Part shown: positions 12,334-42,470 of the stretch, piece after piece
Layout of the letters: each line of letters opens with the position of its first letter
Numbering within the stretch: the stretch's first letter is position 1
NCBI GenBank assembly: GCA_009919005.1
Contig: RGCW01000004.1
Coordinates: 1 to 50,984 of the forward strand
Direction of reading: 5' to 3'
Length of the DNA: 50,984 bases
Source: Candidatus Aquidulcis sp.
GTDB taxonomy: Bacteria > Chloroflexota > Limnocylindria > Limnocylindrales > Limnocylindraceae
Notes under the pieces: model-generated
Told to the model about the DNA's origin: nothing
Databases searched by the model: none
Seen by the model: the letters and a program-made list of their open reading frames with translations, nothing else
Translations under genes and position numbers: made by a program

Positions 12334-12334
<1 letters not shown>
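11393..12334 (+). CDS. IclR family transcriptional regulator
   Basis: A 313-residue regulator. A Gly/Asp-rich N-terminal extension (~35 residues) precedes a winged helix-turn-helix (about 36-100: SVDRAAALLVCLADADG, with the recognition part LHKSTVSRLLSTLERRGLV). The IclR effector domain follows (about 115-285), with GRPVAMHAIASGKVLLASLP and the DERITAAAVPI segment typical of its ligand pocket. The acidic tail (DDDADEQEHEVADDEE) is unusual. Members sense small acids such as glyoxylate, pyruvate or aromatic acids. Its TAG stop shares a base with the GTG start of acetyl-CoA synthetase, so it very likely regulates acs and itself. The start ATG 11393 has GGAGGAG nine or so bases upstream. Confidence 0.93.
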
Positions 12335-14304
<1,970 letters not shown>

Positions 14305-14309
14305 CGAGG

Positions 14310-14354
14310 ACTTTTCCACAACACGCCCAAATTGCTCGTGAATGGTGGAAAAGT
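14310..14354. terminator. Strong inverted repeat after acs
   Basis: A perfect 10-bp inverted repeat, ACTTTTCCAC (14310-14319) and GTGGAAAAGT (14345-14354), begins 6 bases after the acs stop, with further CACG/CGTG pairing inside. The position suggests a bidirectional transcription terminator between the convergent acs and LCP genes, but no U-tract follows on either strand. The arm also resembles a DnaA box (TTTTCCACA against TTATCCACA); I do not claim that function. Confidence 0.45.
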
Positions 14355-14628
14355 GCTGCGAGACTCAGCGATAGTTCGTTGATAAGTCCCTTCTCGTAGG
14401 GCGTGTGCGCAGCGATGCTTCTCGTAGCCCGAAGGGGCCAACGGTGACCCCGCCGACCGAGCAATCGGCCAGGCGGCACGGACTGTGGCGATGACGGGAT
14501 CGAGCCGGCAGGTAACTGACGGTGCTGGTGAATGACCACCAACGCGCGGGGCGACTCGCAGCGGCGGAGCGGAGGGTCACCTGGGAGCTCGGCTTTACGG
14601 CCAGAGCGACTCGATCCGATCTCACAGC
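14355..14628 (+). ncRNA. Candidate structured non-coding RNA (unclassified)
   Basis: This lies in the longest gene-free stretch of the window (14305-14693). Nested complementary segments could fold into one domain: a closing stem 14355-14363 with 14620-14628 (one mismatch); an inner stem GGATCGAG 14497-14504 with CTCGATCC 14610-14617; a hairpin 14388-14393 with 14431-14436 that stacks on 14399-14402 with 14427-14430; and a hairpin 14450-14476 (CCGCC/GGCGG and CCGA/TCGG) capped by a GCAA tetraloop on the plus strand. No pairs cross. The GNRA loop suggests plus-strand transcription. I find no RNase P, tmRNA, SRP, 6S or riboswitch consensus. No translated frame looks coding. Chance pairing in GC-rich DNA remains possible. 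Confidence 0.35.
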
Positions 14629-14693
14629 GGAGGGGACTCGGCGTGTATGCGTCGCCCCCTCCATCGGATGGCCTCTCGGGCGAACCCTTTTCA

Positions 14694-16202
14694 CTATGGA
14701 CTGGTGCTCTCTAGCACGCTGGATGATGCCTCGGGACTCGGCGATGGAGATTCAGTTGGCGAAGGCGAGGGCGATACAAGGGCCGGGAACGCGTTCGCGA
14801 TCGTGCTGCGAATCTTCGCGATCGTCGCTGGTGTCAGGTATGCGGGATACGCACTCGGTGCGAAGCGGTAGAGGCGCACAAGAGCGGTTGATGCTCGCGA
14901 GAAGAGATCGACAAGATTCGGCAGAGAACTTCGAGGCAGGTCGGTCCACACATACCCTTTTGCGGCTGAGGCGAGCCCTGGGGCGTTGAGAATGGTGGCA
15001 GCACCGAGTTGATCGCGTATAGCTAGTAGGAGCGCCTGTTGGCGTCGCATCCGTCCATAGTCTGAATCCTGATGCCGACTTCGGGCGTAGGCCAGCGCGA
15101 GACGACCATCAAAGTGATGTCTCCCAGTATCAATTCGAAGTTTGATTGAACCGAGTACTGGGTCGGGATAGTTCGCGTCAACAACAGACTCCGTCACATT
15201 CATATCAATGCCCCCCATCGCATCAACCACCTTGATCACCCCCCACAGGTCGGCGACGAGGACGGCATCGATCGGTCGTTGGGCCAACTCTGAGATCGTG
15301 GCGCGGACGGCGGCTATCCCGGAGACACTCCCATCTCCCGGCCAGAGCTGCGGATAGTAGAAGGTTGCATCGGTGTAGACCTCGTTGAGGAGCTTGGTGA
15401 AACAGCCGCAGGGGCTAGCGTTGCGTGCGGCACCCGGAGGGAGCGGCACGTTCACCATGTTGCGCGGAAAGCCGAACATTGCGACACGACCCGTTGCCAC
15501 ATCGACCTCAACGAGCAGCATGACGTCCATGCGTCGGCTCCAGCGATCGTTGCCAGCGTCGGATCCGAGGAGAAGCAGATCAAATTTTCCGTCATCGCCC
15601 CACGGGATCTCGCCGGGGCGTGTCCACGGCGTGGCGACGGTTAAGGGTGGCAGCGTCCCCGTCCCCGCTCGATTTGGCGTTGGTGTGCTCGGAGACTCTG
15701 CGGGGGAGGCTTCATCTGTGGGCGACACATCTGTGGGACCAGGGCTCGTCACCTGAGGTAGGGGACTCGGAGAAGCCTCAGAGAAGGTGCTGTTCAGTAG
15801 GTCATCGAATGCGGCCAGCGATCGTCCGATAGCGAGGTGAGGTCCAACGATGAGCAGGAGCGCCGCAGCAATGACCACGGCGCGGTCACGCACGGAGAGG
15901 CGCGTGCCACGTGCTGCATGCGCCGTTGCACCAAGTCGCCACACGGCAACGATGAGGTTGATGAGGCCGAGCGCGATCAAGGCCCCAGGCGTGACCATGA
16001 TGATGAGGAGCTGCCTGGTTCCACCGAACAAGGTCACGAGAACGAGGGCCGTGAGCAGTGCGAGCATCGGTGCCGCCCAAAAGAGAGCGATCCGACGGTT
16101 GCCGCGCAGCCAATGCCCGGCGCCTGGGGCCAGTACCGAGAGAAGCGCAGCGCGAACTGGCGAGGTCACACTGCGGCGGCGTGTTGGTCTGGCAGGCTTC
16201 AC
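14694..16202 (-). CDS. LytR-CpsA-Psr (LCP) family protein
   Basis: A 502-residue membrane-anchored protein of the LCP family, which transfers glycopolymers from lipid carriers to the cell wall or outer layers. The N-terminus is basic, with about four hydrophobic segments (residues ~17-130), more than the single anchor of classical LCP proteins. A Ser/Pro/Thr-rich linker (about 145-185) leads to the extracytoplasmic LCP domain: LLLGSDAGNDRWSRRMDVM, the FPRNM motif, and YARSRHQDSDYGRMRRQQ, which holds conserved phosphate-binding arginines. A second Ser/Pro-rich tail ends the protein. It converges on acs across the structured gap. In a Chloroflexota-like monoderm it could attach polysaccharide to the envelope. 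Confidence 0.9.
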   Translation of the reverse strand: MKPARPTRRRSVTSPVRAALLSVLAPGAGHWLRGNRRIALFWAAPMLALLTALVLVTLFGGTRQLLIIMVTPGALIALGLINLIVAVWRLGATAHAARGTRLSVRDRAVVIAAALLLIVGPHLAIGRSLAAFDDLLNSTFSEASPSPLPQVTSPGPTDVSPTDEASPAESPSTPTPNRAGTGTLPPLTVATPWTRPGEIPWGDDGKFDLLLLGSDAGNDRWSRRMDVMLLVEVDVATGRVAMFGFPRNMVNVPLPPGAARNASPCGCFTKLLNEVYTDATFYYPQLWPGDGSVSGIAAVRATISELAQRPIDAVLVADLWGVIKVVDAMGGIDMNVTESVVDANYPDPVLGSIKLRIDTGRHHFDGRLALAYARSRHQDSDYGRMRRQQALLLAIRDQLGAATILNAPGLASAAKGYVWTDLPRSSLPNLVDLFSRASTALVRLYRFAPSAYPAYLTPATIAKIRSTIANAFPALVSPSPSPTESPSPSPEASSSVLESTSP

Positions 16203-42397: not shown

Positions 42398-42470
42398 GGT
42401 GGCCAGAGGGAATTGAACCCTCATCTGCGGCTCCACAAACCGCGGTCCTAACCATTGAACGATGGCCACC
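42398..42470 (-). tRNA. tRNA-His (GTG)
   Basis: Cloverleaf on the minus strand. The acceptor stem GTGGCCA pairs with TGGCCAC; an extra G at -1 opposite C73 is the histidine identity hallmark. The anticodon loop TTGTGGA carries GTG with stem GCGGT/GCCGC. The T-loop reads GGTTCAATTCC. CCA is not encoded. It precedes the MFS gene by 24 bases. Confidence 0.95.

Follow-up and report, generated by a model that had tools for sequence, protein, structure and literature searches.

Why a genome with very little space between its genes should keep one long interval free of them is the question raised by the 389-bp gap (positions 14305-14693) between the convergent acs and LytR-CpsA-Psr (LCP) genes in the DNA analysed here, a stretch of 50,984 nucleotides from Candidatus Aquidulcis sp. 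(Limnocylindraceae), referred to below as the window. In Limnocylindrus (Limnocylindraceae, class Limnocylindria), the median values are 1.3 Mb for the genome size and 12 bp for the intergenic length, and the GC content is 63.15% (PMC13212565). The genus studied here fits this lineage in its small genome size, its GC content of about 63% and its standing as the only genus of its family, and the fact that the gap has nonetheless been kept therefore implies selection. An earlier note, made from the letters of the sequence, had proposed that the gap holds a structured RNA of ~275 nt on the plus strand, matching none of the families checked by eye. Its placing of the gap between convergent acs and LCP genes agrees with the open reading frames and their Pfam domains (gene names used here come from Pfam or from reading of the frames). 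The next gene after the LCP gene is thyX, and over the whole window just one Rfam match reaches gathering score, a tRNA at 42398-42469 on the minus strand.

Conservation, structure and strand of the RNA

Among the other 18 genus genomes, a DNA similarity search recovered the gap in 16, at 74-90% identity, with the match in G005 interrupted by a contig end and no match in G007 and G008; the compared genomes are fragmentary assemblies throughout. Outside the genus, the same DNA gives a single weak stretch, in a sister family. Two further matches, at G057:C110 and, over 21 nt, at G004:C13, fall in coding sequence and were rejected as looking like chance. With a covariance model built for the RNA, 16 of 19 genus genomes, own genome counted, give a match, and the RNA is retained in relatives whose neighbouring genes differ.

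Alignment of 15 genus sequences (alignment A1) yields 80 consensus pairs, and 98.7% of the pair cells pair across it. Double changes affect 12 pairs, versus 4.9±1.6 when columns are shuffled (12 was reached in 0 of 500 shuffles, which ignore relatedness) and 1-2 in slid-partner controls, which favour any structure derived from the same alignment. The aligned sequences are few and related, and some compensatory cells are single events; the covariation thus looked for makes a good case for an RNA structure, though one short of final. The best-supported helices are 14505-14511/14516-14522, with compensatory changes in three of its six pairs (11 cells), and 14546-14550/14555-14559, both closed by GNRA loops in most sequences, while the pairs of the closing helix are mostly invariant. 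An alternative helix, GGUGA(C)/(G)UCACC (14443-14448 with 14576-14581), could form in most sequences; its only variation is wobble, and it competes with the helix 14442-14446/14662-14666. The 5' end of the RNA probably lies within a few nt of 14427, and its 3' end is placed at about 14681-14691. Features of the locus are collected in Table 1.

Table 1. Features of the acs-LCP locus (window coordinates; distances are relative to the predicted RNA start)
Feature	Position	Strand	Basis or remark
acs (acetyl-CoA synthetase)	12334..14304	+	ORF; Pfam AMP-binding and ACAS_N; upstream neighbour of RNA
DnaA-box-like site 1, TTTTCCACA	14312..14320	+	At -115; conserved in genus
DnaA-box-like site 2, GTGGAAAA (TTTTCCAC on - strand)	14345..14352	-	At -82; conserved in genus
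DnaA-box-like site 3, GTTGATAA (GTGGATAA in other relatives)	14378..14385	-	At -49; degenerate in window
-10-like element GATGCT	14414..14419	+	-13 to -8, place of family TAnnnT; weakly suggested by alignment and column counts
Predicted RNA core, 255 nt	14427..14681	+	Genus alignment, consensus structure, covariance model
Closing helix, 5' arm	14427..14438	+	Pairs with 14670-14681; same outer stem in sister-family RNA
Hairpin, GCAA tetraloop, two stacked helices	14450..14476	+	CUUG loop in L016
Long central helix, 5' arm	14479..14503	+	Pairs with 14611-14629; contains 8-bp stem of earlier note; 3 pairs changed on both sides
Hairpin, type CCGACAG-GCAA-CUGUCGG	14505..14522	+	Strongest covariation; e.g. 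CUGAUCG/CGAUCAG in L012
Hairpin, type GAG-GCAA-CUC	14546..14559	+	Compensatory changes in 3 of 5 pairs
Hairpin	14584..14610	+	2 compensated pairs
Long central helix, 3' arm	14611..14629	+	Consensus pairing
Hairpin GGGG..GGCGU-GNAA-GCGUC..CCCC	14632..14659	+	GNRA loop in most relatives
Closing helix, 3' arm	14670..14681	+	Consensus pairing
LCP family gene	14694..16202	-	Pfam PF03816; convergent with RNA

As to the strand, 98.8% of the pair cells pair when read as plus, versus 89.6% when read as minus, and 119 G-U cells are pairs on the plus strand only, which favours that strand. Folding energies, compared with shuffled sequences on both strands, are better than shuffled for the plus strand (z of -2.83 for the gap and -2.88 for the core 14427-14681), but about as good for the minus strand (-1.98 and -3.31, respectively), and are therefore suggestive only, with no bearing on the choice of strand. 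Taken with the conservation in relatives and the changes at codon positions and Rfam results given below, the comparative evidence indicates that the gap encodes a structured plus-strand RNA as the earlier note had proposed, of ~255 nt instead of ~275 nt, strongly conserved in the genus. The note's structural model proved half right. Two of its elements, the hairpin with the GCAA loop and the 8-bp helix 14497-14504/14610-14617, occur in the sequence and form part of the 15-sequence consensus. The closing stem of the note (14355-14363/14620-14628) contains a C-A mismatch and has an unconserved 5' arm, and in the relatives' consensus its 3' arm finds its partner within 14479-14496 instead; the note's first hairpin (14388-14436) is likewise unconserved and overlaps the true closing stem, so that the boundaries move to 14427-14681.

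Comparison with Rfam 15 gave no gathering-score match in the gap, in line with the note, the only match at E up to 10 being one of 17 nt (E 4.5). RNase P RNA and tmRNA are similar in length to the window RNA, but the covariance models of both miss the gap: the RNase P RNA gene (RF00010) lies elsewhere in the genome (G000:C29:9750-10064, 203.8 bits), and full-length tmRNA (RF00023) is found elsewhere in seven genus genomes, with no match at the gap locus. A 6S-like RNA that binds RNA polymerase also appears improbable. The 6S model (RF00013) has no match here or in any of 41 genomes of the order, where the role may thus be vacant, but such a vacancy is weak evidence, since the model detects 6S RNA in only 5 of 14 control genomes, and the consensus is multi-branched with GNRA hairpins and not a rod with a central bubble. 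Still less credible is the view that the conserved DNA does no more than terminate transcription in both directions, or that it is just the minus-strand 3' untranslated region of LCP. The position between convergent genes and the folding of the minus strand, better than that of shuffles, would suit this view; set against it are the cells that pair on the plus strand only, the persistence of the RNA where its neighbours change, and a length of 255 nt with several hairpins, which far exceeds a terminator. The least probable reading is that a small protein is encoded, for instance by a 109-aa minus-strand open frame (14365-14694). One minus frame is indeed stop-free in many relatives, but L011 and L016 have no stop-free frame at all, and in the genus alignment, considered on both strands, changes at codon positions 1, 2 and 3 (0.14, 0.17 and 0.085) show no third-position excess and single-base indels are present. 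A coding gene on either strand was rejected on these grounds.

DnaA-box-like sites upstream of the RNA

The region preceding the RNA contains three sites resembling DnaA boxes (Table 1). The first is the only exact TT[AGT]TCCACA within the 51-kb window, and the three-box pattern matches once and only once in each of 16 of the 19 genus genomes, every time just upstream of the RNA, versus no match of the reversed control. Number, order and spacing of the boxes are conserved, and the intervening bases vary. The earlier note had read part of this region as a 10-bp hairpin (14310-14354). As DNA, this inverted repeat is real, but its pairing is lost in relatives, e.g., ACTTATCCAC/GTGGAAAACT in L005; its halves are retained as TTNTCCACA and GTGGANAA, each of them DnaA-box-like.

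The same 8-mers occur in the dnaA-dnaN region, three times in G004 and twice in G009, versus 0.05 and 0.04 expected, respectively. These data support, without proving it, the identification of the three sites as DnaA boxes, and another factor with a similar site could bind them instead of DnaA. A replication origin at the RNA itself was considered and rejected: G093:C23 and G030:C16 have no clear GC-skew switch there, and in two relatives boxes are found in a dnaA-dnaN region that lies apart from the RNA. A scan for consensus sigma-70 promoters and terminators found nothing around the gap.

A related family of small RNAs in sister families

A relative of the locus is found in a sister family, in which the order acs-moaA-RNA is kept together with the same outer stem and upstream region; the element of G041, for example, occupies the same place behind acs-moaA and matches the window through the upstream region and the outer stem, GCCCGAAGGGGCC...CUUCGGGC, that is common to both RNAs. 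In the window genome, a search for moaA gave no match. More generally, sister families contain a multi-copy sRNA family whose promoter geometry is common with the window RNA, and the class that holds it is probably Limnocylindria. Among 72 named copies (contigs QHBO01 and 'Candidatus Limnocylindrales' are among the named matches), a box of the GTGGANAA type lies at -45 to -53 in 58, versus 0.085 expected, the second box is mostly at -82 to -83 and the forward box mostly at -115 to -118, with TTG at -37 and TAnnnT at -13 downstream of the boxes. These RNAs are short-bodied, in most cases about 65-90 nt long, and carry between one and four GAGAUYRCAUCAA (or GUGCUUGCAU) loops; the family is absent from Rfam. 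The loop pattern is present in 93 of 177 genomes of the class (the reversed control matched once). With a model of the first domain, additional copies were recovered in the class, as many as five per genome; some of them stand in tandem and end in U-rich, terminator-like stretches. Outside the class, a search of ~345 genomes of the phylum gave no match to the family. Judging from titles and abstracts, the literature found does not describe an sRNA family defined by a DnaA-box promoter.

The window RNA shares with this family the three boxes at about -115/-82/-49 (sites 14312, 14345 and 14378), the start site and an outer stem of the form GCCCG[AG]AG.../CUUCGGG, as well as the position of one family copy behind acs-moaA. 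It differs in being 255 nt long, with GNRA hairpins and without the GAGAUYRCAUCAA loop: models R2 and R3 of the sister-family RNA find no match in the genus. Because the loop and the model match are absent and the interior is not recognisably family-like, the window RNA is best regarded as a relative and not as a member; with no recognisable similarity between its interior and that of the sister-family RNA, a shared function is uncertain. Matches to GAGATYRCATCAA in the genus were considered as family remnants and rejected, those that were read lying inside long open frames, several of them secA-like.

Several family members have an organization of their own. The loop GAGAUYRCAUCAA is repeated within single RNAs, four times in L339, three times in L340 and twice in L341 and L345, as expected of a titrating RNA. 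The repetition of one loop 2-4 times follows the logic of titrating RNAs of the CsrB/RsmY type, but the loop is not the GGA motif of CsrA, and the window RNA has no repeats of it. In L342, L343 and L344 (minus strand), two or three related sRNA genes stand in tandem at spacings of ~260-340 nt; every gene has boxes of its own and a U-rich terminator-like end, and a second loop type, GUGCUUGCAUYRG, occurs in these arrays. In two sister-family genomes (L179, L183), the gene immediately downstream of a second family copy appears to be the same, judging from a similar N-terminus. Matches to the family pattern also occur outside Chloroflexota, in MAGs titled Steroidobacteraceae and Gemmatimonadetes (L302, L323), which may be due to binning errors or transfer.

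Possible roles of the RNA and of its control region

The genome comparisons establish that the RNA and its control region are conserved; DnaA control, transcription from about 14427 and action in trans are what we infer from them. The reading that we prefer, with a probability of roughly 0.6, is that of a stand-alone RNA gene under DnaA control, whose outer stem and promoter are ancestral and whose interior is genus-specific. DnaA would bind the three sites and control the promoter, so that RNA output would track the state of replication initiation. The product, a multi-branched RNA of ~255 nt predicted to be held by the closing helix and several GNRA-capped hairpins, would act in trans, serving either as a regulator or as a scaffold for proteins; trans action is suggested because no gene follows the RNA in the same direction in the genus loci read, although no target or partner was found for the window RNA. 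The genus, with its small genomes, would have preserved the ancestral outer stem and promoter and exchanged the loop-bearing interior for a larger domain of its own.

Two other readings give a different weight to the parts of the locus. The working part could be the DNA, the three boxes titrating DnaA or altering its nucleotide state, and the RNA being secondary. This would resemble datA and DARS of E. coli, non-coding loci with ordered DnaA boxes away from oriC that act as DNA (PMC4585315), and would suit boxes whose number, order and spacing are conserved with variable bases between them. The window boxes, however, precede a structured RNA at a fixed distance from its start and from a -10-like element, the RNA itself covaries, and box clusters recur before many paralogous RNAs, tandem arrays included; we regard this reading as unlikely. 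Alternatively, the RNA could be a diverged cis-regulatory, riboswitch-like leader, as the sister-family copy before a purine nucleoside phosphorylase gene might be. In most cases, the sister-family RNA is followed by a second conserved domain and then by the phosphorylase gene, whose ribosome binding site is inside a hairpin. In L058:2722-2960, L093, L100, L107 and others, this second domain reads CCCGACGGGACGUGAYCGGCAUCCCGGUGUCGRUACUYCCGUCGGG, with covarying stems, and the hairpin covering the ribosome binding site is GCGGGCCUC...GGAGGCCCGC-AUG, an arrangement that looks like a riboswitch-type leader. Paralogs with terminator-like ends and in tandem arrays do not fit this scheme, and in the genus loci examined, namely the window (LCP), L033 and the thyX-flanked relatives, the next gene converges on the RNA, which makes a leader function unlikely; we consider this explanation quite improbable for the window RNA.

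Beyond a stand-alone gene under DnaA control, a broader possibility can be raised tentatively, with the odds somewhat against it: the class may have an undescribed DnaA-controlled RNA regulon, with several sRNAs per genome behind a three-box promoter that would report initiation via conserved loops. The single one found in the freshwater genus would now be a larger, GNRA-rich RNA, maybe a ribonucleoprotein scaffold or even a ribozyme.

An RNA that is kept despite a median intergenic spacer of 12 bp must be useful, and its promoter architecture recurs in a multi-copy RNA family that spans several families of uncultured bacteria from soil, groundwater and lakes. The box geometry provides a sharp, testable prediction. 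Should DnaA indeed bind there, the replication initiator would be tied directly to non-coding RNAs, an unusual connection. The relationship of the window RNA to this wider set of small RNAs in one class of Chloroflexota suggests that, in these bacteria, an RNA regulator may be coupled to DNA replication.
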